NCBI RefSeq assembly: GCF_014280435.1
Contig: NZ_CP060388.1
Location: 2,617,501-2,681,500, forward strand
DNA: 64,000 nucleotides
Source: Sphingobium sp. KCTC 72723
Lineage (GTDB): Bacteria; Pseudomonadota; Alphaproteobacteria; Sphingomonadales; Sphingomonadaceae
Direction of reading: 5' to 3'
Below the pieces are notes generated by a model, which saw nothing but the letters and a program-made list of their open reading frames with translations, was not told where the DNA came from and searched no databases. The position numbers and the translations under genes were made by a program. Each line of letters starts with the position of its first letter. Positions within the stretch are counted from its first letter, which is position 1. Positions 2,027-20,689 of the stretch are shown here, in pieces.

Positions 2027-3736
<1,710 letters not shown>

Positions 3737-3940: not shown

Positions 3941-4333
3941 CGTGAATCCGATTACAGCAGATTGCAAGATAGGTTGGGCTCAGTTCGTCGCGGATCGAGG
4001 AGTTTTTGCCTCGCGGCTCGACGTCTGCCGAACTCGCAATTAAAACAGACAAGGGCCGTCGGGGTTCGACGGGAAAAGGCACTTGGTTCACTTGGCACAC
4101 CCACAAAAGGGCCTGCCCGCCACGCTTCAGATCATGCCTTGGAATGCGGCGTTCTGCAACAGCCTCAGTTTTGCAAATTGTTGCTGGCACCGAGGTTGCC
4201 GAAATTATAGCTAAGCCTAGAATCGTGATCGAAAAGTGCAACTGCCGACCCTTCCCGGGCATTCAAGGATCCCACCTCCACATTCCGAAGGCAGACACTA
4301 GTTTGTCGAAAACGGGCTGCTGCCAGGCGTGCA
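3941..4333. other. Intergenic region without a convincing gene
   Basis: About 390 bases between the recombinase unit and the TfoX-like gene. Several overlapping open frames exist on both strands but none has recognisable composition, a good ribosome-binding site or a family match. Nothing else was seen. Confidence 0.5.
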
Positions 4334-4669
4334 TCAACCGGATTTGCGCTTGGTCCTGACCTTGGGAGCAGGCAATTCCTGAGATGTGATACGAACGATC
4401 TCGGCAAGCCACTCACGGTCATCCCACTTTTCCGCGTCGATCAGGAGACAAGGCTTAGCACCGGGATATGGAGGGGCTTCTTCCGAACCGGCAGCGAAGG
4501 CCCACCCTCCAACCGTGGGCTTTACGAATAGGTGGTCGTCGCAGACCAATGCGACCATTTTCCCATCGCAATAAATGCCGAATTCGCCAAACATCGCCTT
4601 GGCTGAAACGGTGCCGCCGCCTGCCATTTGCTCAACAAGGAATTCAACGGTTCTACGATCGGACGCCAT
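4334..4669 (-). CDS. TfoX/Sxy N-terminal domain protein
   Basis: A 111-aa protein beginning MASDRRTVEFLVEQM with the typical TfoX N-domain pattern: SAKAMFGEFGIYCDGKMVAL followed by DDHLFVKPT and a PPYPGAKP segment. TfoX/Sxy proteins act in competence regulation in gammaproteobacteria. In alphaproteobacteria such single-domain proteins are common, of unknown role, and often sit on mobile DNA. The C-terminus is short and basic (KVRTKRKSG). The frame is open further upstream, but sequence before 4669 does not look like TfoX. It lies alone between the recombinase and the IS110 transposase. Confidence 0.85.
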   Translation of the reverse strand: MASDRRTVEFLVEQMAGGGTVSAKAMFGEFGIYCDGKMVALVCDDHLFVKPTVGGWAFAAGSEEAPPYPGAKPCLLIDAEKWDDREWLAEIVRITSQELPAPKVRTKRKSG

Positions 4670-4891
4670 AAGGCGATATCGCCGGTCCTGATGAAAAGGT
4701 CGAGGGTCAATCGACCCTTCTTTGCCATTCACGGGTAAATTTTCGATACCCAGGTCCGGACGGTCCTCTGTGGATGGCTCCCGCGTTGCAAGCATAAAGT
4801 GATGATCTGACGTTCCGTCGGGTGCAGTCGTCTGTCCGGCCTGTTGATGCAGTCGGTGTAGACTGCTGGCCCTGATGGGGTTCGCGAACAA

Positions 4892-5027: not shown

Positions 5028-6068
5028 CTATGCTGCCGCCAGCATAGGCGCATGCCCGCGTTCGAAGACGCCGCCGCGCGCCATAACTGCCCATGCGATC
5101 CGCGCCATCTTGTTAGCGATGGCGACCGAGGCGACACGCGCGGGCTTTCTGGCAAGCAGAGCGACAAAGCGCGGATCGACCGTGCTGGGTTTCTGCTTGG
5201 CGTATCGGACGAGCGCGGTTGCGCCGACAACCAGGAGCTGCCGCAGATATCGGTCGCCCATCTTGGTAATGCGCCCCAAGCGTTCCTTGCCGCCACTCGA
5301 ACTCTGTCGCGGGGTCAGCCCTAGCCAGGCGGCGAATTGGCGCCCTGACGAGAACTGGCTTGGATCGGTCACCGACGCGGCGAGTGCGGTCGCGCCGATC
5401 GGCCCGATACCAGGGATCGTCGCCAGACGCCGGGCCCGCTCGTCGCTCCGCTGCAGAGCGGCGAGACGCAGGTCGAGCTTGCGTAACTGGGCGTGAAGCT
5501 GGAGCAGTTGCCCTGCCAGCACTGTGACGACGTTCGCCGCTTCGGTTGGCAGATCGAGCTCAGACTCTCCGTCGACGATTTCCCGCGCCATCTGCAGTGC
5601 CTTCACGATCCCGACCGGGATGGCGACGCCCAGTTCTGCGAGCACGCTGCGCATCATGTTCACCAGCTGCGTGCGCTGTTTGATCAACAGCTGGCGCACG
5701 CGGTGCAGCGACAACGCCGCCTGCTGCTCGCGCGACTTGATGGGCACGAACCGCATCGTCTGACGTGTAACTGCCTCGCAGATCGCCTCGGCATCGGCGG
5801 CGTCGTTTTTGCCCCGCTTTACGTAAGGCTTCACGTAAGCCGCCGGCATCAGCCGCACCTCATGACCCAGCTTGGTCAGTTCGCGCGCCCAGTGATGCGA
5901 CGTCCCGCAAGCCTCGGCGCCTACCAGGCACGGCGGCAGCTTCTCGAAGAACGGTAGCATCTGCGATCGTCGCAGCGCCTTGCGAATGACGACCTCACCG
6001 GTCGCGCTGATACCGTGAACCTGAAAAACGTTCTTGGCCAAATCGAGGCCGATCGTGCTAATCTCCAT
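5028..6068 (-). CDS. IS110-family transposase
   Basis: A 346-aa transposase of the IS110 family, with a DEDD (RuvC-like) N-terminal domain and a C-terminal transposase_20 domain. Visible motifs are GLDLAKNVFQVHG at the start, KRGKNDAADAEAICEA (about 85-100), LATIPGIGPIGATALAA (about 215) and SGGKERLGRITKMGDRYLR around 260-280, which carries the C-terminal serine region used for recombination. The start is ATG at 6068, preceded by AAGGAG; the frame is open further upstream. IS110 elements lack classical terminal inverted repeats and encode a guide RNA in a flanking noncoding end, so the exact ends cannot be set by eye. The frame is intact, so the copy may be active. Confidence 0.93.
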   Translation of the reverse strand: MEISTIGLDLAKNVFQVHGISATGEVVIRKALRRSQMLPFFEKLPPCLVGAEACGTSHHWARELTKLGHEVRLMPAAYVKPYVKRGKNDAADAEAICEAVTRQTMRFVPIKSREQQAALSLHRVRQLLIKQRTQLVNMMRSVLAELGVAIPVGIVKALQMAREIVDGESELDLPTEAANVVTVLAGQLLQLHAQLRKLDLRLAALQRSDERARRLATIPGIGPIGATALAASVTDPSQFSSGRQFAAWLGLTPRQSSSGGKERLGRITKMGDRYLRQLLVVGATALVRYAKQKPSTVDPRFVALLARKPARVASVAIANKMARIAWAVMARGGVFERGHAPMLAAA

Positions 6069-6496
6069 GGCGGGTGGCTCCTTCTCGGGTTGCATGACAG
6101 CAACCCATCTTGGCACTTAGATGCCGTGAGCGGGAGCCATCCACCGCATCCGCTACTTGAATGGCTACGCCCAAGAAGCGCCGATTGCGGATCGTCAGCT
6201 TCTAGCAGCAGAAAGGCGGAACCTGCCGTTCGTGGCGTTCACTCAAATTCTAGACCTACTTGGCGCCGGAATTTTATTGACCGACCAGTCATCCGCGACC
6301 GGTCCGCTTAGAGTGCTATGTTCGTATGCCCTTATGTCGATGTGCAGGTTAACCGGCTGTCCTGTTTCATCGGACGTAGGCGACCTGTCAGGACCAGACG
6401 CTGATGTCCATGCGCGATCGGACATAGAAGTCCACTCGGCTGCCATTGCAAGTAGCCAGAAATCGCCACATATTGCGTTCAACGAGGTAACGCAAC
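6069..6496. other. Noncoding stretch between IS110 transposase and HTH gene
   Basis: About 430 bases with no convincing gene. Since the transposase is on the minus strand, this is its upstream flank, where IS110-group elements can carry a long noncoding end. No terminal repeats or clear promoter were identified. The last bases (GAGGTAACGCAAC) give the ribosome-binding site of the next gene. Confidence 0.45.
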
Positions 6497-6994
6497 ATGG
6501 TCAAAATCGTCTCATCTATCGAGCCTACCAAAGTCTTGCCGATCAAACCAAAGGCCGACACCCGCAAGGCGTCGGAGAAGAAATACGGCAAGCCGGTCAT
6601 GGACCTGGGTTTCTGTATCGTACCATCGCTGCTGATGCAGGCGCAGGCACGCCTTGGCATTAACCCGGTGCAGTTCAACATAATTATGCATCTGGCCGAC
6701 ATCTGGTGGGACGTCGCGCAACGGCCTTGGCCGAAAAAGCAGCTGCTGGCTGAGCGCATGGGTATGAGCGAGCGGCAGGTGCAGCGTCAGATAGCCGAGC
6801 TGGAAAGTGCCGGCCTTGTTCAGCGTATCGAGCGCACCCGGCCTGGGCGCGGCAAAACCAGCAACGAATACGACCTGTCCGGTCTGGTGAAGCGATTGAA
6901 AGAACTGGAGCCAGAGTTCACTGAAATGAAGCAGGAGAACCAGAAGCGCCGCAAGGCGGTTTCCCTGCCCAAGCATCGCCGGGTCTCGGCGTAA
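6497..6994 (+). CDS. Winged-helix/HTH DNA-binding protein
   Basis: A 165-aa basic protein with a helix-turn-helix core at about residues 55-125. LGINPVQFNIIMHLADIWWD is followed by KKQLLAERMGMSERQVQRQI and a wing-like GLVQRIERTRPGRGKTSNEYDL, a pattern like MarR/replication-initiator winged helices. The C-terminus is Lys/Arg-rich. GAGGTAAC precedes the start. It could regulate the TIR cassette downstream (the next gene starts 257 bases later) or be a plasmid-type replication or maintenance factor. No replication origin was seen nearby. The function is not certain. Confidence 0.75.
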   Translation: MVKIVSSIEPTKVLPIKPKADTRKASEKKYGKPVMDLGFCIVPSLLMQAQARLGINPVQFNIIMHLADIWWDVAQRPWPKKQLLAERMGMSERQVQRQIAELESAGLVQRIERTRPGRGKTSNEYDLSGLVKRLKELEPEFTEMKQENQKRRKAVSLPKHRRVSA

Positions 6995-7251
6995 GGTTTA
7001 AAGGTCGCGGTCCACCGCAGACTTTCAGGACATAGGACATGGCGCTTCGACCAGAAGCATCGGCCCCTTCCATAAGGGCAGGATGACTCCGCCACGTCCT
7101 ATGTTCAATTATGTAGTGCTGTGCGCGGGATTCGCGAGAGTTTCTTACCGTAGCAGTCCGTCCAAGATTCCGTGTCGCAGGGGCACTCTGACATATTCGT
7201 TCGCCCGGCCATAGGCGTAGGATAGGCTAAAGGTTCATCTAAGGGGTACCC

Positions 7252-7539
7252 ATGGTCAAGATTTCCGGTCTCAATAAACTGACCCGCACACTCAACGACG
7301 CCCAGAAGGCCATCGCCGCGATCGACGGCGAACTGGGAGCCGTCAATTTCAATCCCAACGATCCGGGTAGCATCGAGGCGGCTATCGCCCAGATGGAAGC
7401 AATGATCGACGAGCGCCTCGGAGGCTACGCTTCCAATCCCATTGTCGCGCCGATGATGGAAGGGATGAAGGAGCGCTATCGTGACGCAATTATTGAACGC
7501 GCCGCGCAGGCCCGTGTGGAAGGCGATAGCGACCAATGA
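7252..7539 (+). CDS. Small helical protein coupled to TIR-like effector
   Basis: A 95-aa, mainly helical, acidic protein (MVKISGLNKLTRTLNDAQKA...). AAGGGG lies just upstream of the ATG. The stop overlaps the next start as ATGA (7536-7539), so the two are translationally coupled. Not recognised as a known family. The pairing with a TIR-like effector suggests a regulator, sensor or immunity partner, which is inference. Confidence 0.75.
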   Translation: MVKISGLNKLTRTLNDAQKAIAAIDGELGAVNFNPNDPGSIEAAIAQMEAMIDERLGGYASNPIVAPMMEGMKERYRDAIIERAAQARVEGDSDQ

Positions 7540-8438
7540 GCCACAGTCCTGATCTGTTTGAACAAATCAATAATGCGGTGCTCGATCTTCAGAGCGCCCA
7601 ATATCAGAGTTACGATCGTCCGCTGAAGACGCTGGCGCATTTGCTGAAGAACCCGGATTTGGCGCCCTACAACGTGCAACTGACCGATGGGCTGGACCTC
7701 GATGCCTTCTTAGCTGAAAATGAATCGCGTGGTGGCATGGTTGGTGGTGACAAGCTGGCCTGGCCGGTCGAACCAGAGAAAGTGTTAGGTCTAACTCTGC
7801 TACTCATTCAGCGATTCGCGGAAAAGCCGCACGACATGGCGAGTTTCGGACACACCTACTATTACACTGGCCGTAAGATCATCGGCGATGTTCGCGCCGT
7901 TACATCCCAGGTCATCATCCCCTTCGCACGAGATTATAAAGCCTATGTCATGAGCCACGGCAGCTCTGCCCCAGCACTGGCGCGCCCTTCGTCACACAAT
8001 ACCAAAGTGTTCATCGTCCACGGGCATGACGGCGAGGCGCGCGAGACGGTTGCCCGCTATCTGGAAAAAATCGGGTTTGCCCCGATCATTCTGCATGAGC
8101 AGGCCAATCGCGGCCGCACCGTCATCGAAAAGGTGGAGGCCAATAGCGATGTGGGTTTTGCCGTCGTTTTGCTGACCCCGGATGACGAAGGCTGTAAAAA
8201 GGGAGATTCCCCAGAACCGCGTGCCAGACAGAATGTGCTTCTTGAACTGGGCTACTTTATCGGGAAGCTGGGCCGCGACCGCGTGTGCGCTTTCCAGCGC
8301 GGTACGGTGAATATTCCGAGTGACTTCGCCGGAGTGGTTTGGACCATGATGGATGAGAGCAATGGCTGGAAGCAGGAGCTGGCGCGCGAACTTTCGGCTG
8401 CCGGTTATGCGATTGACTGGAATACTGTCATGAAGTGA
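7536..8438 (+). CDS. TIR-like nucleotide-binding protein (PF10137 type), probable NADase effector
   Basis: A 300-aa protein. Residues 157-300 form the TIR-like domain described as predicted nucleotide-binding protein (PF10137): KVFIVHGHDGEARETVARYL, then HEQANRGRTVIEKVE, FAVVLLTPDDEG, and ARQNVLLELGYFIGKLGRDRV. Glu237 in LLELGYFIG is at the position of the catalytic Glu in TIR NADases. The same domain type serves as effector in cyclic-nucleotide defence systems such as CBASS and Pycsar. Residues 1-145 form a helical region that I do not recognise and no STING or cyclase is adjacent, so the trigger is unknown. It is coupled to the 95-aa gene upstream. A role in abortive infection by NAD+ depletion is inferred. 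Confidence 0.85.
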   Translation: MSHSPDLFEQINNAVLDLQSAQYQSYDRPLKTLAHLLKNPDLAPYNVQLTDGLDLDAFLAENESRGGMVGGDKLAWPVEPEKVLGLTLLLIQRFAEKPHDMASFGHTYYYTGRKIIGDVRAVTSQVIIPFARDYKAYVMSHGSSAPALARPSSHNTKVFIVHGHDGEARETVARYLEKIGFAPIILHEQANRGRTVIEKVEANSDVGFAVVLLTPDDEGCKKGDSPEPRARQNVLLELGYFIGKLGRDRVCAFQRGTVNIPSDFAGVVWTMMDESNGWKQELARELSAAGYAIDWNTVMK

Positions 8439-8530
8439 CCAAATGCTTGCACACGTCGAGGCGGGCGTTGAGCCGCGGCGACTATCTCTCGCTGATGCGC
8501 AAGGAGGGTTTGCTGATCGAGGTGCTGTGA
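8435..8530 (+). CDS. 31-codon ORF overlapping the TIR gene (small gene or remnant)
   Basis: GTG at 8435 overlaps the TIR stop (GTGA) and opens a frame encoding 31 residues, ending RGDYLSLMRKEGLLIEVL and stopping at 8528-8530. The tail looks like a genuine protein C-terminus, so this may be the truncated end of an older gene rather than a functional peptide. No family is recognised. Confidence 0.3.
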   Translation: MTKCLHTSRRALSRGDYLSLMRKEGLLIEVL

Positions 8531-8552
8531 CCGCCGACCGTCTGGTTGGACA

Positions 8553-11531
8553 TCATTCCTCGTTCCAGTGGCGCCGTCGTTGGGCCACGTCGCGCGCCGC
8601 CCTTCGCTGTTCCCACGCCATATGCTGGGCAAGCTCGCGCGCCCGGTCCCTCGCATAAGCCCGCACGCGCGGCCTTGCATCGTCGCGATAACGCTCGATC
8701 AACTCCTTGCGCCGGGCATGCGCCTCGACGAAGCCGAACTCACCGGTCACGACACCGGTCGCGCCCAGCATATCCGAGACCCGGTTGAGGAGCTTGTCGC
8801 CCGGCTCGAGGCGATCGACCACCTCCATCGCGACGGGATACAGCTGTTCGTCCCCCTCATAGGGTGCGAGGCTCTTGAGGATGAACTTCAGATCTCGCTC
8901 ATCGCCTCGCCGGGCGAGGTCGGTGAGCTGTTCCGAGACCGCATCGGTCAGCTTGGGAAAAGTGTGCTTGAGAAGCCGGCCGCCGCGATATTCGTGGAAG
9001 CTCGGCTCCTCGTCATACCATTGACGCACCGCCGGCAGGAGGAGGTCCGCATGGGGTGACAGCACCTTCGCCAGATCATGCGGTTCGAACGGAACCGGGT
9101 CGAAGCGATCGCGGGATTCGCCGCGCTCTCTCCCCAAGCGGGTGCCGAAAAAATCTATGATCAGCTGCGGATGCCGGCTCCCGACATCAACCAGCAGCCG
9201 CACAGCCCGATAGTCGAGCATTGGGATGTCAATGAACGAGGTCAGCAGCACATCGGCTTGTTCCGGGGTCAGGTCCCGGAGAATTTGCCCATAGCCGTGC
9301 GCGTGGAAGCTGCCGATCCAGTGGGGCAGCCGATGGTCGGACGCGTAGCGGGCGACCGGTATCAGCACGAGCTCGATTAGAGCCGGATCGGCCGCGCCAT
9401 TATACCATTTCGCTGCGATCGTTGCCGTGCTCACCACCGAGACCTGTTCGTCCCGCTCGATTGCCTTCGACACATAGGCGGTCAGCCGCTCTATGTCAGG
9501 AGCCGGCTTGCGGTTGAGATAGTCGCCGATCGCCGAAAGGTAGTGCCCGTCCGCAAGCCAGCGATCGATCAACGCCAGGGCCGCATCCAGGCGCCCCGCG
9601 CGCTCAAGCCCAGCGAGAATGTCGGAGAGAAAATAGGAGCCCTGCTCGCTGACACCCTCTGCCATCAGCAACCCGACCTCGGGCTTCTGTTCGGCCAGAA
9701 GGCCAAGGAAGGTACGCATCGGCATGAAATGTCCGCCATCGAAGCCGACGGCATCGCTATAACGGTCGATGCGCGCCTTCCATTCCGGAACAGTTTGAGC
9801 TGTCACCTCGGCGATGATTGCTGGGTAGCAGTCACGCCGCCACTCGTCTGTCGCCTCATAGTCGAAATGGTCGCCGTCCCAGGCCCCGGGATGGACGCTG
9901 TCGTGCCCGATCAGTGTCTTATAGAGCATGAAGTCGGGATCGGCGGCGAGCTGATCGCGCAGGCCGAGCAAAGCGTCGATCAACGCCCTCTGCGCTTCGA
10001 CGAGTTCGGGCTTCTCCGCCAGGGTCGGCGGCAGGACATGGTAGCGATAATGGGTTTGGAGCGCGTCCACCTCACGGCCGCGACGCAATTCCAGTCCCCA
10101 GTGCGGCGCGCGATCGAGAATGAGGCGCGCGACGCGAGCGCCGTCCTCAAGCAGCATCAGCATGAGCTCATCCCCGCCCTGCATGGGCATGGAGTCAGCC
10201 TTGCCAAGCGCCTGCAGGATCGGCAGCCGCTCGGCATCGCTGGCCGCGGCATCAAGCCACTGTTCCAGCTCGGCGATCGACCTGTTCCGCAGGGCGCGTA
10301 GGACGTCCGACGGCCGAACCGCACCCTGGTGGATCATCACGCTGTCGGAGCGCCACGTCGCGCCGCCGACTTCGGCCGAAAGGACATGCGCCAGCATCGC
10401 CACAAGCAGCGGGCGCGCCTCGACGATCGCGTCGCCGTCGAGCCGATCCAGCTCGTCCAGGATTACCTGCTGTGCTTCCGGACCATATTGCTTCCAGACA
10501 GCAAGATTATGCTTTGCGAGTTCCTCGCCGGCCTCGATCCAGAGCCGTCGCTCATCCTCTTTGCGCGCGCCTTGGTAAAGCCGAACCAGCGCATGGAAGG
10601 TGCGGTCGGGCTCGAAATAGCGGTGCGAGCGGATCAACTGGGCGACCCGCCACGCGACATCGTGACCGGACTTCCCGGGAAGTTCACCATGCTCCCATCG
10701 AATGGGAATGACCGGATAGTCGCGCGATCGCTCGACCGCATCTATTAGAGCCTCGAGCCGGACTGAAAACTCTGCATCGGGCTCGTCGAAATGTGGCAGG
10801 ACGAGATCGGTATAGGTCTCGAGCGCATCCTCGAGTTCGTTGTTATTGTCTGCGTACTCGATCGTCGCGATCATCGCTTCCGAAGCGCCATCGGCCCGTA
10901 GCAGCCGGCCGAAGTCGCCCGCGATCTTGTCGAAATCATGCCCGGCCGGAATCAGGTGATCCTGCATGACCTTGTTCATGCGTTCGCCGATCGCTGCCAT
11001 CCGCGCCTTGCCGACATGAGTGAGCTTGGGCTTCTTGTAGATGGTGTCGTGCCCCATCTCGGCCCAGGCATGATTGAGGAGCGTTTGAATCTGGATTTCG
11101 GCGCTGAGGCCCTCGAATTGGCGATATTCCGTGAGCGCCAACCGCTCCGGCTTCAGCCGGACCAGGTAATTGGTGCTGTCAAACAGCTTCGTCTCGGTAT
11201 CAGTGCCCGGCACCGGGTGATGGACGTTAACGCTCAGCACCTCGAAATTCTCGTGGAGTGCGCGGGTGTTATTGAAGGCGTCGACCTGGGAATTGGTCAG
11301 GAACACGACCCGACATCCTGCCAGATCCTTGATCTCGTCCATCGGCTGATCGAGCCCGATTTCGCGATCCCCTAGCTTTTTACGAAGTGAAGCAAACTCC
11401 TTCGCTCGGCCGGTCAGCCCGTGCGCGACCATCTCATGCTGGGCGAGCGCATGCCGAAGAATGTTTTGCACGGCGTCAACGAGCGCGAGATAGCGCCCGC
11501 GCCCGCCCTGCTGATAATCCTCGAATGTCAT
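8553..11531 (-). CDS. RelA/SpoT-domain protein with very long helical C-terminus
   Basis: A 992-aa protein. Residues about 30-170 form a RelA_SpoT nucleotidyltransferase domain: GRAKEFASLRKKL (41-53), MDEIKDLAGCRVVF (64-77), and AEIQIQTLLNHAWAEMGHD (144-162), matching the conserved ExQxRT and HAWAE signatures of (p)ppGpp synthetases, with Gln in place of the usual Arg of ExQxRT. There is no hydrolase domain and no TGS/ACT region. Instead about 800 residues of helical, repeat-like sequence follow, rich in LLP, DAL and ERL patterns, suggesting HEAT/TPR-like solenoids. Toxic small alarmone synthetases and CapRel show that this fold can serve phage defence by pyrophosphorylating nucleotides or tRNA; the solenoid could be a sensor. 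It diverges from the next gene with a 56-base gap. Confidence 0.85.
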   Translation of the reverse strand: MTFEDYQQGGRGRYLALVDAVQNILRHALAQHEMVAHGLTGRAKEFASLRKKLGDREIGLDQPMDEIKDLAGCRVVFLTNSQVDAFNNTRALHENFEVLSVNVHHPVPGTDTETKLFDSTNYLVRLKPERLALTEYRQFEGLSAEIQIQTLLNHAWAEMGHDTIYKKPKLTHVGKARMAAIGERMNKVMQDHLIPAGHDFDKIAGDFGRLLRADGASEAMIATIEYADNNNELEDALETYTDLVLPHFDEPDAEFSVRLEALIDAVERSRDYPVIPIRWEHGELPGKSGHDVAWRVAQLIRSHRYFEPDRTFHALVRLYQGARKEDERRLWIEAGEELAKHNLAVWKQYGPEAQQVILDELDRLDGDAIVEARPLLVAMLAHVLSAEVGGATWRSDSVMIHQGAVRPSDVLRALRNRSIAELEQWLDAAASDAERLPILQALGKADSMPMQGGDELMLMLLEDGARVARLILDRAPHWGLELRRGREVDALQTHYRYHVLPPTLAEKPELVEAQRALIDALLGLRDQLAADPDFMLYKTLIGHDSVHPGAWDGDHFDYEATDEWRRDCYPAIIAEVTAQTVPEWKARIDRYSDAVGFDGGHFMPMRTFLGLLAEQKPEVGLLMAEGVSEQGSYFLSDILAGLERAGRLDAALALIDRWLADGHYLSAIGDYLNRKPAPDIERLTAYVSKAIERDEQVSVVSTATIAAKWYNGAADPALIELVLIPVARYASDHRLPHWIGSFHAHGYGQILRDLTPEQADVLLTSFIDIPMLDYRAVRLLVDVGSRHPQLIIDFFGTRLGRERGESRDRFDPVPFEPHDLAKVLSPHADLLLPAVRQWYDEEPSFHEYRGGRLLKHTFPKLTDAVSEQLTDLARRGDERDLKFILKSLAPYEGDEQLYPVAMEVVDRLEPGDKLLNRVSDMLGATGVVTGEFGFVEAHARRKELIERYRDDARPRVRAYARDRARELAQHMAWEQRRAARDVAQRRRHWNEE

Positions 11532-11587
11532 TCGCCCCCCATCTACTGTGCCAGACCGTCCCGTTACTCACACGATTGGCTAATAGC

Positions 11588-12862
11588 ATGCGTCTCACAG
11601 TCCTCTACCCCGAAGTGATGCCGCACATTGTCGAGTTTGCCGCGGGGTTGATGCCTGTTCGTCTGGGCGATGATGAGCGGCTTTCCCTCGTCGTGAAAAC
11701 GCAGAAGGAAGCGATCCTTGCTGCCCAGATGCACGGACTGTTCGCCTTCTACCTGCCGGCGCTGCCCGCGTCCTCGGGCACAACCACCTCGCTCATCACC
11801 GCGTTTTTCGATGACGATGACGAGCCGCTCGCCATTCGCACGCCCTTGTTCGGCGATGATGCCTTCTCGCAGGGCATCATCGAGATCCTGAAATATGACG
11901 AGGTCGACGTCTATTTCTTCGACGAGCACAATTACGAGTGGATGAGCTATCGAACGGCTCTGGAGGATAATGGAAGCTGCCTCATTGGCGACGAGAATAT
12001 CTGCCTGCTCGGCTACCATCCTGAAACGGTGAAGAGCATCCACGCCGTGTTGAACGACTGGTTCGGTGCGCGCACGGCCGAGGATGACGAGCGCACGATC
12101 CAGGCCGTGTTCAAGGAGGCGCTATCGCCGGGCGATCTTTTCGTCCTCGACATGACGCCGGAAATGAACGGCTATCAAGGCGGCACCGGCTTCCGCCACG
12201 ACACGTTGACGAGAACCGATCCCGGTTATCATCAGGAGCGGGACATTTCGGCATGCCTGCTGCGAGCCTTTGAGCCCGGCCAAATCATCATGAACCCCAG
12301 GCGCAAGGATAATTGCAAGGAAATCCTCGATCATCTGGTCCTGACCGACGAGCTGGCGATCCTCGTCCAGGCAAAGGACAGTCCAACGACGGAAGCCGGG
12401 ATAACCCGAACGCTCCAGCGCAAGCGACTGGCAACCCATAACCAGATCGACGCGGCGATACGGCAGATCAACGGAGCCGCCCGTTACCTGGATCGCGACG
12501 GCGCTGCGAAGCTGGTCGTTGTCGGACAGGATATCGATGTCGACCTCGGCGATCGGCGCGTCATCGGTCTCGCGATTGTCAAGGAGATGTTCGACGATGA
12601 AGGCACCGCCTATGCGGCAGCATGCGCGAAGATGGCGGGCCTTTCCGGGGGCGGCATGGTGATGGACTATAATTCCTTCCATGCCTTCACCCATCGCTTC
12701 GCGTCGCACGATGCCTTCGTGGAGGCGCTTGAGAAGCTCATAGCCCATGTGCGGATTAAAGGATGGATTCGGGTAAAAGACGAAGTGTTTGACGGTATTC
12801 TGGATTGGATAGAGCGTTACCGCGCCAACGGATCGGAAGGCAGCGACACCCCCAGCCTGTGA
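11588..12862 (+). CDS. Putative PD-(D/E)XK nuclease-like protein, divergent from RelA/SpoT protein
   Basis: A 424-aa protein from ATG 11588; an in-frame ATG at 11525 would add 21 residues and overlap the divergent gene's start. Residues 1-180 are acidic and not recognised. At residues 235-265 the pattern NPRRKDNCKEILDHL followed by DELAILVQAKDS resembles the E...D...(Q)xK active site of restriction-like nucleases (Glu245, Asp248, Lys263). It is followed by an RxTLQRKRLATHNQIDAAIRQINGAARYL-like helix, seen here in two parts, as in that superfamily. The motif is suggestive, not proof. The tight head-to-head arrangement with a RelA/SpoT-domain gene suggests a shared system, perhaps with shared regulation in the 56-base gap. 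Confidence 0.6.
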   Translation: MRLTVLYPEVMPHIVEFAAGLMPVRLGDDERLSLVVKTQKEAILAAQMHGLFAFYLPALPASSGTTTSLITAFFDDDDEPLAIRTPLFGDDAFSQGIIEILKYDEVDVYFFDEHNYEWMSYRTALEDNGSCLIGDENICLLGYHPETVKSIHAVLNDWFGARTAEDDERTIQAVFKEALSPGDLFVLDMTPEMNGYQGGTGFRHDTLTRTDPGYHQERDISACLLRAFEPGQIIMNPRRKDNCKEILDHLVLTDELAILVQAKDSPTTEAGITRTLQRKRLATHNQIDAAIRQINGAARYLDRDGAAKLVVVGQDIDVDLGDRRVIGLAIVKEMFDDEGTAYAAACAKMAGLSGGGMVMDYNSFHAFTHRFASHDAFVEALEKLIAHVRIKGWIRVKDEVFDGILDWIERYRANGSEGSDTPSL

Positions 12863-12893
12863 GAAGGCATGCGCGAAGTTGTAGGCGCGCCGA

Positions 12894-13187
12894 TTAACTC
12901 CGTGGGGCGATGGCCAGCTGCGCGAGCGGGACGCACTTTTCCCTCGTCACAAAATCAGTGTGGCGCGCTTCGGAGGGCTGCATGTAGAGAATGTGGAGCG
13001 GCAGGCACTCGCCTGCTGCCTGCATCTCCCGTTTGAGTTGGGACAGAGCGTCGCCGCCGAGGCCGACGATCAGGATGTCGATATCCTCGCCGATCCCGCG
13101 CAGGGTCGAACCGAACATGTATGACTCAAACTGCCCCAGCGATCCGCAACAGCTCAACAGATGGGCGGCAACCTCACCGGCGGTCAT
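12894..13187 (-). CDS. Minimal nucleotidyltransferase (MNT-like)
   Basis: A 97-aa protein starting MTAGEVAAHLL, with the nucleotidyltransferase motif FGSTLRGIGEDIDILIVG (GS followed by DxD). It is short, like the MNT partners of HEPN/MNT pairs and other NTase-fold modules. The start at 13187 overlaps the upstream stop by one base (TGATG), which strongly indicates coupled translation; the frame continues upstream to 13238. It is the third gene of the HNH operon. The role could be AMPylation-type silencing of a partner or nucleotide signalling; neither is proven. Confidence 0.75.
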   Translation of the reverse strand: MTAGEVAAHLLSCCGSLGQFESYMFGSTLRGIGEDIDILIVGLGGDALSQLKREMQAAGECLPLHILYMQPSEARHTDFVTREKCVPLAQLAIAPRS

Positions 13188-13825
13188 CAGGCCGTTCTCA
13201 GATATTCCCTCAGTTCGTCCCATTTCATCACCTCGCACCCAAGCTCATGCCCAGCGTTAATCGCGTCGGGCGAAGGATTTCCGTTAGGATTGATGTTCCA
13301 AACGGTGTCGACGGGCCCGAAGTCGTCCCAAAGGCTGCGAACGGCCTCGGCGGTGGGTTCATAATCTGCAATCATGCCGATCCTGACACTGGTCCCGCTT
13401 TTGAGCGAAACCCGGTGGATACGATCATATTCCCGGATCACCTCCTGCACCTGACCATATTGACGAAGGAGCCTGTCAGCGAATTTGTACACCTTGTGGG
13501 ACGCGCTATTAGCATTTCCATCGAGCGCGGCCGAGCCGAGGGTTCCGAGGCTTCCCCAGCCGATGCCGGCGTCTTCGAGATACTGGATGGCTTCACCGTA
13601 CCAGACGCAGGTTTTCCGATAGCCACACAGAAAATCCAGTTCGGGATACTTCTCCCTGTAACTCGCCGCCGTCGCCGCACCGATCTCGTTTGCGGCCGAT
13701 ATCGCAGCCGATACGTCCGGCTGATCCGGCGTCGCGATCCGGATCAGCTCGCCCTCCACATGCTCCGCGGTTGACCGCGTCTCCTTGGCAATATTGGCGA
13801 GCGCGTATTTGACCTGCCAGTTCAA
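13187..13825 (-). CDS. Unknown middle protein of HNH/NTase operon
   Basis: A 212-aa protein, not recognised. The N-terminal half is helical (MNWQVKYALANIAKETRS...). The C-terminal third (about 145-212) alternates hydrophobic strands and helices: SVRIGMIADYEPTAEAVRSL, then VDTVWNINPNGNPSPDAINA and GCEVMKWDELREYL, resembling a small Rossmann-like or nucleotide-binding domain. ATGA joins it to the HNH gene and TGATG to the NTase gene, so the three proteins are probably made together, perhaps as a complex. Confidence 0.75.
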   Translation of the reverse strand: MNWQVKYALANIAKETRSTAEHVEGELIRIATPDQPDVSAAISAANEIGAATAASYREKYPELDFLCGYRKTCVWYGEAIQYLEDAGIGWGSLGTLGSAALDGNANSASHKVYKFADRLLRQYGQVQEVIREYDRIHRVSLKSGTSVRIGMIADYEPTAEAVRSLWDDFGPVDTVWNINPNGNPSPDAINAGHELGCEVMKWDELREYLRTA

Positions 13826-14517
13826 GAAAAAATGCCTTCCATCGTTTCGGGGAAACGGATTGCGCGGCCGGCGACGCCGCAGACGTGGCGTTCCGACAGA
13901 CCACGAACATGTTCCTGATATTCTGCAAATGTCCGGCGTTCGTCGTCAGTGGCAAGCCCCAGGTTCGCCTTGATAATCGCCTGAGCGTGATAGTGGTTGG
14001 GGAGGATGACGCTCCTCATCCGCTGCCTCCAGGCTTGGGAGGCTTCGGACTCCGGATCATACTCGAATTCGGAGCCATGCTCGGGGGCGAACTTGTCCCA
14101 GATTGCTTTGTTCTCGGCCATCACCCCGACGACGGCAGCTCTTACCTGAGCGCGATCTTCATAAGCCCTGATCCCTTGCTGTGAGGCCAGGTTAGCGAGG
14201 TGGTTCTGCTTCCACTCCAGGAGGATGGTGCGCGGGAAACCATCGGGATCCTTATCGATCTTCGTATGGCACGTCGGGCACAGCAAGATCAGGTTTTCAA
14301 AGGCGTCGGGGTCGAAATCGCCAGCCGGTCTATCTCCATGACGCGGTCCGGCCTCGCCATGCGGAATGACATGCGCCATTTCAGCAATGTGCTTGTCCCC
14401 GCCCAGTTCGACCGGGAAAAGAGCATCGAGGCATTCCGGCTTCTGACAATAACCTGCTGCTTCGGAAAACAACCGAAGTCGTGTAGCCACCGGTAATGCC
14501 TTTCGGTCTGCCATCAA
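13822..14517 (-). CDS. HNH endonuclease
   Basis: A 231-aa protein with an HNH domain near the N-terminus (about residues 20-95): zinc-binding CQKPEC, then AEMAHVIPHGEAGPRH, and FENLILLCPTCHTKID, where AH, N and the second Cys-X2-Cys/His give the complete HNH signature. The C-terminal region is helical and unassigned. First gene of a three-gene coupled operon (HNH, unknown, nucleotidyltransferase). Two adjacent ATGs (14517, 14514) could start it. The context suggests a conflict or defence nuclease. Confidence 0.85.
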   Translation of the reverse strand: MMADRKALPVATRLRLFSEAAGYCQKPECLDALFPVELGGDKHIAEMAHVIPHGEAGPRHGDRPAGDFDPDAFENLILLCPTCHTKIDKDPDGFPRTILLEWKQNHLANLASQQGIRAYEDRAQVRAAVVGVMAENKAIWDKFAPEHGSEFEYDPESEASQAWRQRMRSVILPNHYHAQAIIKANLGLATDDERRTFAEYQEHVRGLSERHVCGVAGRAIRFPETMEGIFS

Positions 14518-14809
14518 GAAACCTCATCTTTTTGCTCACGGCCAACATAGGAATGGCCGCATGATCGTCAGCAGTCCAGCTTCCTTCGGTTGAAAGAATG
14601 GCGAGCGTATTTTGGCCTCCGATCAGCGCGGCAAGCCAGATGAACGTACGGCAGGTTCCAAGATCAGGAATTTAGGTGCTGAAAGGCCAGAAGAGGGCGC
14701 GAAGCGGCAACGCCGCACCACGCCGAAAATGTCCGCTATCCTATTGGATTTGCTCTGAAGCGGACCGGGCATAAAGTCCCAATGCAAGCCATTGAGGTAA
14801 GCGTAGCAA

Positions 14810-16180
14810 TCAGCCTGCGTTCCAGATTTGTTGCCATACAGCAAATTCCGACGGACGAACCAGGTATCGCGCGAAATTGCCCTCGTGCAAGCCCAGCAAC
14901 TCCGTTTCTGCGACCTCGGCAAACTGGTCCTGATCGGCCGTTGGGATGAATTCACGGGACGTCGTGACCAGATGCGCGCGTGTCGCCTGTCGGCTCATGG
15001 CACCGAGCACAACATCCCGAACGACATCGCGCAACTGTTCCCGATAGCGCAGGCGGAAGGGGTCTGGCTCACCCATTGATTGACGAACGGCGGCGTAGCG
15101 CGCTGCGGATCGCTGATAGGCCCAAAGGAATACGTCGCGCAGCAATGTTATGTCGTTGCGTTCATAGACGCCAAGCGTGGCGCGCGTGTAAAGGTCGCCT
15201 GGAACCTCGGTGAACGACAATGGCGCAAGGTTCGCCCGGATCATGGGAATATTGGCGGCGAGGCGTGATACGCGCTTATTCACATCGTCAAAGGGCTGAA
15301 GATAAGGAAGCTGCACCATTATGAAAAAGGCCTGCTCGAATGGATCGTCGATGGCCGCCGCTGTGGCAAGGATTTGATCGAAGCACTCCTCGATGAGACC
15401 CGGACCTTCCAGTGGATGAAAAGTTGAACCGTCTATCCCTACGATGATGTGGCGCAGTCGCCCCACCGCCGTCGGGTCAGCTAACAGATTGTTCGCCAAT
15501 AACGCATGCAGGTTGAGTATCGTATAGCGATTGAACCCGACATCGTTGGCGTTGGCGACGAGAAACTCGATCGCATCCTTATGATTGAGGATCATCTGCG
15601 CTTCGCGCGGTCCGCGCCCCTCTGCGGCTTCCCCGAAATCCAGCAGCCGCCGCGTATCGAGCAGCGAATATGTGTTGCCTTCGAGACGGCTGGAATTCCA
15701 TGCAAGGTCGATAAGCAGCCTGTTCAATATCTGCTTCGCGTAGGTGCCTGCCGCTGCGGCCTCAATCTGCGGCTTGCCGATTGTAGCCAGATGATCGCGC
15801 TGCTGCTGGGTCAGATAGAAGGTTTCGTTGGGCCGGTAACGATCCAGGAAGCTGCGTTCATAGCCGACCGGTTGTCGCACCGCGACGGGCTGGCGCACAT
15901 AGGCAAGGACAGCGCTGCCTTCAGGTGATATCGGGACGATGTCGGCTGGGCCAGGCTGGGCGATGATCTCATCACCATGGTGATATCGGGCTGCACGCCC
16001 TTCGCCGATAAGGCGTAGCCGACCCGCGTCAACCAAGGCGCGAAGACGATATTGGAGGGTACGACGGGCACCAGGTTCCGCGAGCGCGCCAGTGATCTGC
16101 GCTGCTGACGCACCATCCGGGAATTGGGCCACAGCGGCCTCGATCGCTTGTAGGTCAGCTTCAGGTATTAGTCGTGCCAC
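14810..16180 (-). CDS. Fic-domain protein with degenerate catalytic motif and winged-helix N-terminus
   Basis: A 456-aa protein. Residues 20-70 resemble a winged helix (SAAQITGALAEPGARRTLQY, then LVDAGRLRLIGEGRAARYH). The Fic core follows. The inhibitory motif (S/T)xxxE(G/N) is present upstream of it as SSRLEGN (163-169), as in class II Fic proteins. The expected catalytic loop HxFx(D/E)GNxR reads LQPFDDVNKRVSRL (294-307), so the catalytic His is Gln295 and the first Gly of GN is Val. The enzyme may therefore be inactive for AMP transfer or use another chemistry. The start is GTG at 16180 with AAGGAAG upstream. It lies behind a strong promoter flanked by repeated operators, consistent with autoregulation. 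Confidence 0.88.
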   Translation of the reverse strand: MARLIPEADLQAIEAAVAQFPDGASAAQITGALAEPGARRTLQYRLRALVDAGRLRLIGEGRAARYHHGDEIIAQPGPADIVPISPEGSAVLAYVRQPVAVRQPVGYERSFLDRYRPNETFYLTQQQRDHLATIGKPQIEAAAAGTYAKQILNRLLIDLAWNSSRLEGNTYSLLDTRRLLDFGEAAEGRGPREAQMILNHKDAIEFLVANANDVGFNRYTILNLHALLANNLLADPTAVGRLRHIIVGIDGSTFHPLEGPGLIEECFDQILATAAAIDDPFEQAFFIMVQLPYLQPFDDVNKRVSRLAANIPMIRANLAPLSFTEVPGDLYTRATLGVYERNDITLLRDVFLWAYQRSAARYAAVRQSMGEPDPFRLRYREQLRDVVRDVVLGAMSRQATRAHLVTTSREFIPTADQDQFAEVAETELLGLHEGNFARYLVRPSEFAVWQQIWNAG

Positions 16181-16516: not shown

Positions 16517-16960
16517 ATGAGCGGAACGGATGACAAACCCATTCCACGTGAGCCGCCGCAGACCCCCGATCTGGCAAAGCCAAAAGCGGCACATTGGCTC
16601 TGGCGGCCATGGTATGCCAAGTCATGGTGGACAGCAGCTGCAATATTCTGGCTGATTGCGTTTTTCGCGCCCTATCTCTCTCTCAATGCAGACCATATTA
16701 CCCCCATCATCCTGCTTTTCCATCCATTCTTGATCGTGCCAGTGATGGGTTTTGGTTTTTTCCGCGCGTGGATACGCTATCATTTTCTTATTGAGGCTGG
16801 CTGGATAAATGCCCGAGGCTCTATTGATCCTTTTGGCGCAGATGGAGATATGTTCCGAAGAATGGATCCCACTAATCCCGCAGACTCTCGCTATTATTGG
16901 CACCCCGGCAATCCCGGCAGTGAAGCTTGGCGCAACGAACATGTGCGTGGACTGCGTTAG
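16517..16960 (+). CDS. Small membrane protein of unknown function
   Basis: A 147-aa protein from ATG 16517, preceded by GAAGGAG. A Pro-rich N-terminus is followed by two membrane segments (about residues 35-55 and 62-85: SWWTAAAIFWLIAFFAPYLS, then PIILLFHPFLIVPVMGFGFF), and a soluble C-terminus rich in Trp, Arg and Gly. Not recognised. It ends tail-to-tail with traG, overlapping by about four bases, so it may belong to the transfer region or to the Fic side. It is probably an inner-membrane protein. Confidence 0.65.
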   Translation: MSGTDDKPIPREPPQTPDLAKPKAAHWLWRPWYAKSWWTAAAIFWLIAFFAPYLSLNADHITPIILLFHPFLIVPVMGFGFFRAWIRYHFLIEAGWINARGSIDPFGADGDMFRRMDPTNPADSRYYWHPGNPGSEAWRNEHVRGLR

Positions 16961-19900
16961 CGTTTTTTGTATTCAGATGTTCCGTCACCGAGCCCTGTAT
17001 CACGATCACCACTGAAACGGCCGCTCTCCAAAATACGATGTTGTTCAAAAGACGTGAGTGGCGCCATCATATCAACAGTTCCCCGACTGGCATCGGCCTG
17101 ACCAAGATAGCGATTGCGTAGCCCATTCTCTCCCAGAACTTGCCGATCGAGTTCGCGCGTGAATGTTTCAGCGGGTTGTGTCGAGCGCGACGCCGAGCGC
17201 TCTGCCTCTGCAATGGCGTTACGCACGTCGTAGTTGACGATGTCGGTGCTGGCACGTGCGTCTGTCACCCCCATGCCGACATCACTTGTCTCAAAGCCAA
17301 CCTGTCCTCCGGCGCGGCCATGTGTCCGACCCTTGCCACCAGAGCGCTCTCCTCCGCTCTCGACCGAACCACCTGTATTGATGTTGACGGACGAGCTATT
17401 CGATACCTGGTGGCTCGCACTGCGCGAGAGCGACCGCGTCCATCCCGTCTGCGTCATGATTGCCTGGACATCACGCTGAAGCGTATCGGCAACCTGCGGT
17501 TTCAATCGCCATTCGCCCTTGCGATCCATCTCGAATCCGCCGCGCAGCCAGTTAGCCATCATGGCATGGCCTTCCGCCCCGCCGCCCAGGAAGTGCTCGA
17601 CCGTATCTGGCCCAGCCTGTTTGCCTGCCTCAAACCGAGTACTGCTGTCCGAGCGCGCCGACTGGCTGAATCCGGTGCTGCTCGATACCAATAGGTCGTT
17701 GTGGGCAAAACTCAGCCGCGCCCGCCCACCCTTTGCAATCGCGCCGAGCTGGCTTTCGTTGATAAGGCCCGCCTGCCACATCTGCGCAGCGGTCTGCGGC
17801 GTAAGATTGAGGTTGAGGTCGCCATTCTGGTCCATTGCAATCTGCCTTTTGGTAAGGTTGACACCATTGTCGCGCAGCAATCCTTGCATCCGGGTCAGCC
17901 TCTCATTCTCGACGATGCGGCCAAGCCGTTCGTTGCGCGCCCGATCGGCGATGCCCGCCGCGCCGCCCTCGGCCATGTCGACCTGGTTCCCGGCGGTACG
18001 GCTGAGCGCCTGGATGAAGCTGTCGAGCCGCGCGGCCTCGCGCACCGAAGTCCCTGCCGCTGCCGCTCCTTGCGCAAACCCAAAATTCTCGCTCTGCCGC
18101 CGCTGTTCGCCAATGCGCGCGGCCGAGCGCGTTCCGTCCGGGCCAACTTCGCGCTGCGAGTCGAGCTTTCCCGACCGCTCGGCAAAATCATAGCCCGCCG
18201 CTTCCCGCGTCCGTCCATAGACGCTCGTGCCTTCACGCGCAGCCTCCGCAGTCGCACCATCGGCTGTTCCCACCTGGGCTGCGGCATTATAGCTTTCCAG
18301 TGCATGCATAACCTGCGCCTCATTGCGCCCGGTCGCACGCGAAAGCTGAGTGATGGCACTCGAGCGTGCTTCTCCAGTCAGCGCGTTGATGAAGGATACA
18401 CGCCGCCCTGTTTCGTCGATCGACAGGCCGAGCATGGAGGCTGCTTCTCTTTGCCCCGCATTGCTGCCCGTCCGCCAGCCCTGCTCGGTTGCCACATTGC
18501 CACGCTCCACCTGGGTGACATGGTCCCCGGCATAGTCACGGCGACCTTCCATCGCGCCGACCGTCACCTGCGCTGCGGTCAGGTCATTGCGCAACATCTG
18601 CTCCTGATCGAAAGCATTGGCGCTGAGCTTGGCGAAAGTCGGATCAGCAGCAGCCTGCCCGATCAGGGTCGAAGCCTTGAGCGCTGCGTCCTTCGTATCA
18701 TAGCCGTTGCGCTCAAAATGGCGCTGGGTGCCAGACAACATCATGTCATAGGCGCGATTGTCGCCGAAGGCCTTCCACTGCACCATATTCTGGGCAAACG
18801 CCGCAAACGCCCGCTCGCCCGATTGCCCTTCGCCAAAATAGCTGGTGCCAAGCGCCCGCAACGCATCCTTCTGGGCAAAGTCATGAATAGCGCCGGTCGT
18901 GGCGCTGGCGCGAACCGCTTGTGCCGTCGCGGGATCGGCAAGGTTGCGCCCGCCAAGCGCTGGCGACAGCCCGCCCAACTCTCGCGCCGCATCAATGCCG
19001 CCCAGCGCCATCGCGCTGTTTCCAGCGAGCCCACTGCCATGATCGCCGATCACGCTGCCCGCTGAACCAAAGGCGCGGTTGCCGCCAAAGGTTGAGCGCT
19101 CACCAAAGTCCCCGAAGCTCGATGCTGCACCGCGCCGGGCCATCGTCCCGCTAGCCGATGCCTGCGATTCCAGCGCCGAGGCAAACCCTTCCCGCGTCAT
19201 AAGGGGTGCGGCCGCCGCGCTACCCTGGCCCTGTGCCTGCAACGCGCCACCGGTGAAGGAAGAGAAGACATTGCCCGAAAAGCGGAACACCGTGAACACG
19301 AATGCGCCTGCAAGGCCAGCGGCAGCCGTGCGAAACGTCCCGAATATCGCCAGCGCCTTCATCGCCGAAGAGGGGGCGAGCATCCAGGCATTGACGGCTA
19401 CATGGTTGGACCGCATTTCGGCAAGCACCCCCATCGCCCGCCCCAGGGTGAGCTGATAAATGCCCGCATCGATCACGCCCCACATGGCGACGAATACGAA
19501 CAGTCCGAGCGCAAAACTGGCTACCCGAAGATTGATGGGGGTAAGGATGAACAGCAGCGCAATCGGCATCATGAACAGCATGATGCCAAAGACCGTCGCG
19601 CGAATGGTTGGCATCCATTGATTGGCGACCGACATGGTCGAAAGCCCGCTTGAAACGACTGCCCGGTTCGCCATGATCCGCGCGGCAGTCGCTGGACTAT
19701 CCTCGTACAGCACCTCGCCCACGCTGTTGCCCAGCAATATGTCACTCATGAACGCCTGGAGCGTGAGCGGCGTCCCCATCATCACCTCGCCCATTTGTCC
19801 AAGACGGGTGCGACAGCGCGCGAGCTGACTGGCGTCTGCCACATCATAGCCTGTGCTCTGGCACACTTGGCGGGAATACTCCTCAAACAGCGTCGAGTCA

Positions 19901-20667
19901 TTGAGACGCGACTGAATATGATCCCATGCCTCCTGGCAGGACATGGTCGTGCCGCCCTTGTCGGCCGAGGTGAACACTGTGCTGAACGTCGCTGGTCCCG
20001 CCATGGCGGCGAAGGCAGCGGGAAGGTCGGTCGTGCCGCGGAACAACTGGTCGTCATCCACGCCGTAGGCAGGCGATATGCGAGCCACCGGATAGCATTG
20101 CCGGACATAATCCTTGATCGTGGCATCGAGAAAGCTGTCGGTCATCGGCCCGCGCGGTGACACTGCGTTCAAGAACAGGTCGAAGGAATGACCGCCTGCG
20201 CCAAATTCCAGCTTGGCATTGGGATCAAGACTATTGTCATCGATGGTTTCCGCGAGCGCCCGTTCCATCAAGTTGGTGACGCCTGCGACCAGGACGATCA
20301 GGTTGGGCACGTCGCCGACCGCCTGATAGGCATTGCGCACCCGGTCATAGACATGGACGGTACCGGTCGTGGCGATCAGCCCGACAAAGAGGCCAACACC
20401 CATCAGCATCTGGAAGCCGAACCCGACAAGGCCCATACCCTGGCCACGAATGGAGGCCAGCACGACGCCCAGCGCTAATCCTACGACCGCGCAGATCAGG
20501 ACCAGCGTTTCATAGCGTGGGTCGCCAAAGATCATCGAGACCAGGCGGAACGCATCGACCGTTTCGGCAAAGCCATCATAGGTATGGAAACTCGATTCCA
20601 GCGCAAAGGCCTGCGTGGAGCCAAGTAGAAGGGGGAGCGCGGACAGGGCGCGAACAAGGCGACGCAT
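16957..20667 (-). CDS. traG: Conjugal transfer protein TraG (mating-pair stabilisation, F-type)
   Basis: A 1236-aa protein from ATG 20667 with a signal-like start MRRLVRALSALPLLLGSTQA. It has the TraG N-terminal plan: membrane segments at about residues 45-120 (VLICAVVGLALGVVLASI) and again around 350-450, including LFMMPIALLFILTPINLRV, then a long Gly/Ala/Gln/Arg-rich hydrophilic domain. In F, TraG's N-terminus works in pilus assembly and mating-pair stabilisation, and its C-terminus in entry exclusion. It is the last gene of the operon, 22 bases after traH. The length is slightly above F TraG (938 aa), mostly in the low-complexity C-terminal part. Confidence 0.92.
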   Translation of the reverse strand: MRRLVRALSALPLLLGSTQAFALESSFHTYDGFAETVDAFRLVSMIFGDPRYETLVLICAVVGLALGVVLASIRGQGMGLVGFGFQMLMGVGLFVGLIATTGTVHVYDRVRNAYQAVGDVPNLIVLVAGVTNLMERALAETIDDNSLDPNAKLEFGAGGHSFDLFLNAVSPRGPMTDSFLDATIKDYVRQCYPVARISPAYGVDDDQLFRGTTDLPAAFAAMAGPATFSTVFTSADKGGTTMSCQEAWDHIQSRLNDSTLFEEYSRQVCQSTGYDVADASQLARCRTRLGQMGEVMMGTPLTLQAFMSDILLGNSVGEVLYEDSPATAARIMANRAVVSSGLSTMSVANQWMPTIRATVFGIMLFMMPIALLFILTPINLRVASFALGLFVFVAMWGVIDAGIYQLTLGRAMGVLAEMRSNHVAVNAWMLAPSSAMKALAIFGTFRTAAAGLAGAFVFTVFRFSGNVFSSFTGGALQAQGQGSAAAAPLMTREGFASALESQASASGTMARRGAASSFGDFGERSTFGGNRAFGSAGSVIGDHGSGLAGNSAMALGGIDAARELGGLSPALGGRNLADPATAQAVRASATTGAIHDFAQKDALRALGTSYFGEGQSGERAFAAFAQNMVQWKAFGDNRAYDMMLSGTQRHFERNGYDTKDAALKASTLIGQAAADPTFAKLSANAFDQEQMLRNDLTAAQVTVGAMEGRRDYAGDHVTQVERGNVATEQGWRTGSNAGQREAASMLGLSIDETGRRVSFINALTGEARSSAITQLSRATGRNEAQVMHALESYNAAAQVGTADGATAEAAREGTSVYGRTREAAGYDFAERSGKLDSQREVGPDGTRSAARIGEQRRQSENFGFAQGAAAAGTSVREAARLDSFIQALSRTAGNQVDMAEGGAAGIADRARNERLGRIVENERLTRMQGLLRDNGVNLTKRQIAMDQNGDLNLNLTPQTAAQMWQAGLINESQLGAIAKGGRARLSFAHNDLLVSSSTGFSQSARSDSSTRFEAGKQAGPDTVEHFLGGGAEGHAMMANWLRGGFEMDRKGEWRLKPQVADTLQRDVQAIMTQTGWTRSLSRSASHQVSNSSSVNINTGGSVESGGERSGGKGRTHGRAGGQVGFETSDVGMGVTDARASTDIVNYDVRNAIAEAERSASRSTQPAETFTRELDRQVLGENGLRNRYLGQADASRGTVDMMAPLTSFEQHRILESGRFSGDRDTGLGDGTSEYKKR

Positions 20668-20689
20668 CGGTGGAGCCTTTCTGGGATGT

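Follow-up and report, generated by a model that had tools for sequence, protein, structure and literature searches.

The RelA-solenoid gene and its protein

The window analysed here, the whole 64,000-nucleotide (nt) stretch from Sphingobium sp. KCTC 72723 (contig NZ_CP060388.1), carries on its minus strand a gene (8553-11531) which alone codes, from an ATG, for a protein of 992 amino acids (aa), hereafter the RelA-solenoid protein. On the plus strand a second gene (11588-12862), also starting with ATG, codes for a protein of 424 aa, and the two are separated by a divergent intergenic region of 56 bp (11532-11587). Neither of these open reading frames (ORFs) is a chance ORF. The 992-aa protein has 168 homologues at E ≤ 1e-3 and the 424-aa protein 359; of the 120 matches listed for the former, with the window's own protein among them, 118 extend over at least 92% of its length.

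The alarmone-synthetase-type domain occupies residues 1 to about 210 of the RelA-solenoid protein (10902-11531, minus strand). The PF04607 RelA_SpoT match spans residues 41-167 (E 1e-10, 42.3 bits versus a curated cut-off of 27) and no other Pfam family is found at E ≤ 0.1, HD hydrolase, TGS and ACT included. Residues R42, K44, K52, D69, R74, E145 and Q147 are each kept in 88-90 of 90 aligned sequences, and these R/K, D and E/Q residues presumably have catalytic roles. At the position that our alignment sets against the G-loop tyrosine, the window protein has F117; the family has F in 78 of the 90 sequences and Y in the other 12. The sole PADLOC match in the gene pair is the candidate PDC-S33, which lies over this synthetase part.

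In the AlphaFold2 model (pLDDT 90.0, pTM 0.76) an alpha/beta domain extends to about residue 165 and is followed by nearly nothing but helices up to residue 988. Structure comparisons of predicted models were made with VIA-align 2 and gave HEAT/ARM matches; the helical solenoid of the model follows from about residue 175, and its start is otherwise put at about residue 216. Taking model, HEAT/ARM matches and homology together, a HEAT/ARM-like alpha-solenoid is predicted at residues about 211-992 (8556-10901, minus strand). The original prediction, made from the letters of the window, had described an N-terminal domain of the alarmone synthetase type, about 800 residues of helical solenoid and no hydrolase, TGS or ACT parts; this description is borne out, and the conservation of the RelA/SpoT active site, which it would have counted as support, is found as well.

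The facing nuclease gene

At E ≤ 0.1 neither Pfam nor PADLOC matches the 424-aa protein, and NCBIfam gives a single match, far under the cut-off (E 0.027); searches of PDB sequences gave nothing credible. The ORF list has a longer form of 491 aa that begins with GTG at 11387, but the homologues align to the 424-aa start instead. In an alignment of 95 nucleases (94 from the 120 homologues listed and the window's own), E217, E245, D248, Q261 and K263 are invariant. These residues and the predicted fold identify the protein as a PD-(D/E)XK nuclease: the core fold of the model carries the E, D and (D/E/Q)-x-K residues. Its closest known counterparts are PD-(D/E)XK nucleases (R.BspD6I, Can2, FokI, SduA), but no sequence family reaches its cut-off with it. 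Among 289 genomes of the class, the nuclease family occurs in two, its own and one with a partial match.

The original prediction had thus been right about the nuclease-like fold of the second protein and about the head-to-head position of the two genes. It had further joined them into a defence pair whose members would co-occur in unrelated genomes, and this part did not hold. When genome contigs were scanned with the alignment of the RelA-solenoid family, 83 loci were confirmed, of which 80 were examined with up to 10 kb of flank on each side; they come from Sphingomonadales, Rhizobiales, Burkholderiales, Nitrospira, a cyanobacterium and others. The hidden Markov model (HMM) of the nuclease family finds the nuclease at one of the 80, contig L005 of Sphingobium psychrophilum AR-3-1. 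This contig matches an 8.6-kb block of the window (6149-14781) at 99.5% identity, whereas in the transfer region only 1.3 kb of traH could be compared, with 80% identity; L005 therefore holds a single block that was transferred, and the two genes do not co-occur there independently. At 15 further RelA or solenoid loci, seven of which have no more than about 1.5 kb of flank, a tblastn search with the nuclease found none. Conversely, the RelA-solenoid gene is present at none of 16 nuclease loci from plasmid and viral-contig searches (235,318 bases); at some of these the nuclease stands next to a type I restriction operon (L092) or a TIR gene (L093).

Moreover, the RelA-solenoid gene is mostly solitary, a situation which the original prediction had named as speaking against its pair: of the 64 loci where genes flank it on either side, 50 lack a same-strand neighbour within 50 nt (genes called with our own gene caller, and one plasmid type present in three copies counted once). 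No recurrent partner was found among the neighbour clusters of the 80 loci. The nuclease was consequently rejected as a partner on the co-occurrence counts in both directions; it is a real gene but looks like an unrelated neighbour. A two-gene defence system in which the two proteins act together is highly improbable: the 56-bp head-to-head arrangement, the retention of both genes in the block shared with another species and the fact that P0002 and P0125 give the same longest contig, probably one more close co-occurrence, are in its favour, but they are set against the one locus in 80, the none in 16 and a recurrent partner seen for neither family. The pairing is hereby corrected, and a two-gene experiment would have been misdirected.

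In two viral-collection contigs (L105:6709-11182 and L107:5781-10258) an AAA ATPase and a UvrD-type helicase gene stand as a pair directly before the nuclease gene, an order which we take to resemble Gabija; for L107 this was judged from its similarity to L105 in sequence. In two others (L106 and L109) the nuclease gene adjoins phage-like genes similar to each other by eye, like prophage cargo.

Distribution of the family and re-use of the solenoid

The RelA-solenoid family is sparse, mostly solitary and found on mobile elements. It is present in 6 of 249 genomes of the window's taxonomic family (its own included, two holding pieces only) and in 2 of 398 across the phylum (again with its own). 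The gene was found on a conjugative plasmid, and in two viral-collection contigs it lies about 85 nt from a gene that is integrase-like by eye. The commonest neighbour clusters, named by eye or from annotation, are integrase-like (8 of 80 loci) and RND efflux (7 of 80); the remaining ones reach at most 5 of 80, and several of these come from a single plasmid type that occurs three times among the loci.

Association with defence genes was measured as PADLOC matches at E ≤ 1e-10, leaving out proteins above 1,400 aa; the counts are of families and not of proteins, as one protein can match several. In the near set (at most two genes away; 150 of 259 proteins scanned, the L005 nuclease included) 127 families were matched, those among the matches listed including Argonaute-associated, Dsr1, AbiEi, PifA, DrmMII and RT. 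The distant set (more than 6.5 kb away; 150 of 315 proteins scanned) matched 51, with type I restriction, Druantia, Mza and Qat among the matches listed. For the control set, 17 stretches were taken from genomes carrying the RelA-solenoid gene or a piece of it; 139 of their 243 proteins were scanned and matched 5 families, mostly mads or generic models. As a separate observation, a filamentous Vibrio phage codes for a RelA/SpoT-domain protein of 336 aa (L091:6571-7581; PF04607 E 8.5e-23, PDC-S33 E 1.3e-17).

In plasmid tblastn searches, some matches begin only behind the synthetase domain. On plasmids of Legionella adelaidensis and Pseudanabaena the solenoid is a separate protein of 806 or 802 aa, and on both a PIN_12 gene (332 and 346 aa, E 4.3e-25 and 4.4e-14) lies 2 nt before it. 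With at least eleven further solenoid-only proteins, the synthetase domain is present in none of 13 in total, and the solenoid-only profile matches the RelA family with a hhalign E of 2e-113 over 751 columns. In the case of Rhizobium rhizogenes, the RelA-solenoid protein (L088:6653-10585) has a poly-gamma-glutamate hydrolase domain added at its C-terminus (E 8.6e-45), with a Dsr2 gene about 2 kb away; in L045 and L071, ORFs coding for 1287 and 1290 aa may likewise carry this hydrolase.

Furthermore, a 1206-aa protein of a plasmid of the cyanobacterium Aulosira laxa (P0258, L158:3682-7302) combines an EAD10-like start, a P-loop NTPase (GPGGIGKT) and a C-terminal solenoid. Its end aligns with the RelA-solenoid family (hhalign probability 99.8, E 2.4e-30, 695 columns) and it is matched by the solenoid in hmmsearch at E 1.8e-47, while reversed P0258, 50 shuffles, one DSR2 and one OloA gave no match. 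AAA_16 reaches E 1.9e-6 and 28.9 bits versus a cut-off of 32.6, the nSTAND models score lower and EAD10 is below cut-off; since the Walker A motif is present but the Pfam matches stay below cut-off, we call the protein STAND-like only. Solenoid-only relatives were not confirmed in any viral contig, the PIN-linked solenoid P0242 has no match in phage records, and 2 of 292 cyanobacterial genomes have any solenoid match (the seed genome, of the RelA type, and one 51-residue piece), with no further PIN or STAND copy among them.

Judged from these sequence matches, the solenoid is modular: it is fused to RelA, to RelA with a poly-gamma-glutamate hydrolase, separate behind PIN_12 or placed on a STAND-like NTPase. 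Trigger binding in STAND proteins is usually the task of the repeats at the C-terminus, and a sensing role is supported because the STAND-like protein carries the solenoid at that end. This re-use with unrelated domains suggests a reusable virus detector. Whether the solenoid is the first of a new defence-sensor family traded among synthetase, PIN, hydrolase and STAND-like effectors is an evenly balanced question; if it is, the same sensor would serve NLR-like and non-NLR immunity, a trigger found once could be tested across several effector types, and the sharing of one sensor by a synthetase fusion, a PIN pair and a STAND-like protein would directly show that immune architectures exchange sensors.

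In the window, the RelA-solenoid gene stands tail to tail with a CAP12/Pycsar-type TIR protein gene (7536-8438, plus strand; PF10137, PADLOC PDC-S35). Beyond the nuclease, three successive minus-strand ORFs (12894-14517) may be a separate small system: a small nucleotidyltransferase-like ORF (12894-13238; NTP_transf_2 E 0.017, under cut-off), a 212-aa ORF without a Pfam family at E ≤ 0.01 (13187-13825) and an HNH endonuclease of 231 aa (13822-14517) whose N-terminal part is like SAVED-HNH effectors. Just beyond the shared block follow, also on the minus strand, a Fic/DOC family protein (14810-16180) and then, from a system for conjugative transfer, the genes for TraG_N and TraH (16957-22111). 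On the other side, a minus-strand serine recombinase (2060-3736; CcrB/XisF-like, under the equivalog cut-offs) overlaps tRNA-Met (2027-2103), and this region (2027-3736) is possibly the attachment end of the element. Positions 4246-4769 match L005 at 95% and lie there directly beside the 8.6-kb block; the stretch with the IS110 gene (5028-6116) is therefore absent from L005. We infer that the shared block is cargo of a conjugative element. The RelA-solenoid protein could be a competition factor of mobile elements that blocks incoming plasmids or conjugative elements and not phages, which its position next to tra genes and its occurrence on a conjugative plasmid would fit. We find this decidedly unlikely, as both facts fit phage defence too, the gene is also present in viral-collection contigs, and an element-specific partner was not seen.

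Proposed mode of action and comparison with known systems

By analogy with known systems, the RelA-solenoid protein is quite probably a stand-alone abortive-infection sensor-effector that joins a solenoid sensor to a pyrophosphotransferase. This reading draws on the domain make-up, the conserved active site, the predicted fold, the re-use of the solenoid, the usually solitary gene, its patchy distribution and its mobile, defence-rich setting. The C-terminal solenoid would be the sensor and would hold the N-terminal synthetase inactive until an invader-derived component, a phage protein or similar, binds to it. The freed synthetase would transfer pyrophosphate from ATP either to a nucleotide, making an alarmone that stops growth, or to the 3' ends of tRNA, and through this toxicity the cell would be halted before the phage matures. 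Sensing and release are proposed because of the analogy with CapRel and DSR2. Nucleotide and tRNA pyrophosphorylation are both described in the toxSAS literature (PMC11782079, PMC11559606). As for the substrate, there is a slight and weakly founded lean towards nucleotides, since by score small alarmone synthetases are closer to the domain than CapRel is.

Several observations weigh against this sensor-effector. The 51 families of the distant set mean that the islands are defence-rich overall, so that adjacency proves little, and the PADLOC numbers are families from samples, with a control of 17 stretches from fewer genomes. Close same-strand neighbours are present at 14 of the 64 loci. The PIN link consists of two loci and the STAND link of one protein with STAND and EAD10 matches below the Pfam cut-offs. 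CapRel needs Y155 according to its description (PMC9712102), and this G-loop tyrosine is F in most members of the RelA-solenoid family. Lastly, polymerase genes lie within 10 kb at some loci: a UmuC cluster at 4 of 80 (L018, L025, L031, L060) and a DnaE2 (ImuB/DnaE2) cluster at 5 of 80 (L008, L009, L021, L019, L020), three of these being one plasmid type, with IMS polymerase domains among the commonest neighbour Pfam domains (3 of 150). In several lineages, SOS polymerase genes stand near the RelA-solenoid gene, perhaps as a hotspot or perhaps through co-regulation.

These polymerase genes would suit a stress regulator unrelated to phages, in which the solenoid senses starvation or DNA damage, the synthetase sets the growth rate and the mobile location is carriage only. 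Long RelA/SpoT proteins do act as growth-rate regulators under stress. Such a role is nevertheless rather unlikely in view of the patchy distribution, the lack of a hydrolase, TGS or ACT match, the defence-rich neighbourhood and a solenoid held in common with STAND-like and PIN-linked proteins.

Among known systems, long RSH proteins (RelA, SpoT, Rel) have HD hydrolase, TGS and ACT domains, none of which was found in the RelA-solenoid protein, and the small synthetases SAS1/RelQ and SAS2/RelP are chains of 209-255 aa without a solenoid. A toxSAS module has an adjacent antitoxin in the same operon, whereas the window gene has one divergent and one tail-to-tail neighbour. The Olokun protein OloA is matched at E 3.1e-7 by the PIN-linked solenoid P0244 but not by the PIN-linked P0242; its model matches 1 of 26 RelA-type members (E 0.0076) and also gives matches in 2 of 14 control genomes, and with a weak profile comparison (probability 4.7, E 0.0084) OloA is a doubtful relative. 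One table of Tn7 cargo lists RelA-SpoT (PMC8649781). No description of a RelA/SpoT-solenoid protein or of the shared solenoid, and no mention of PDC-S33, was found in the open-licence PubMed Central literature among the matches listed.

DSR2 likewise has an N-terminal effector and a C-terminal helical solenoid, but its effector is SIR2, for which the RelA-solenoid protein, with its synthetase, has no match. The DSR2 solenoid is reported to contribute to the binding of the phage tube protein (PMC11087589). Compared by sequence, the two solenoids showed no similarity (hhalign E 0.14, no hmmsearch match); DSR2 is not among the 50 structural matches listed for the RelA-solenoid model, which excludes nothing. 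In CapRel, as described (PMC9712102), the C-terminal region blocks the synthetase until a phage protein binds; this region is a pseudo-zinc-finger antitoxin domain, where the RelA-solenoid protein has a predicted alpha-solenoid of about 780 residues. What is already known is the synthetase domain, listed as the defence candidate PDC-S33, whose model matches all 26 RelA-solenoid members scanned and covers, in the window protein, residues 13-157 of the synthetase part only (profile positions 43-175 of 349). The RelA-solenoid protein would thus work like CapRel or DSR2 and be filed under neither, and a large, usually solitary, sensor-carrying class would join the defence effectors of the RelA/SpoT type, of which CapRel is the known case.
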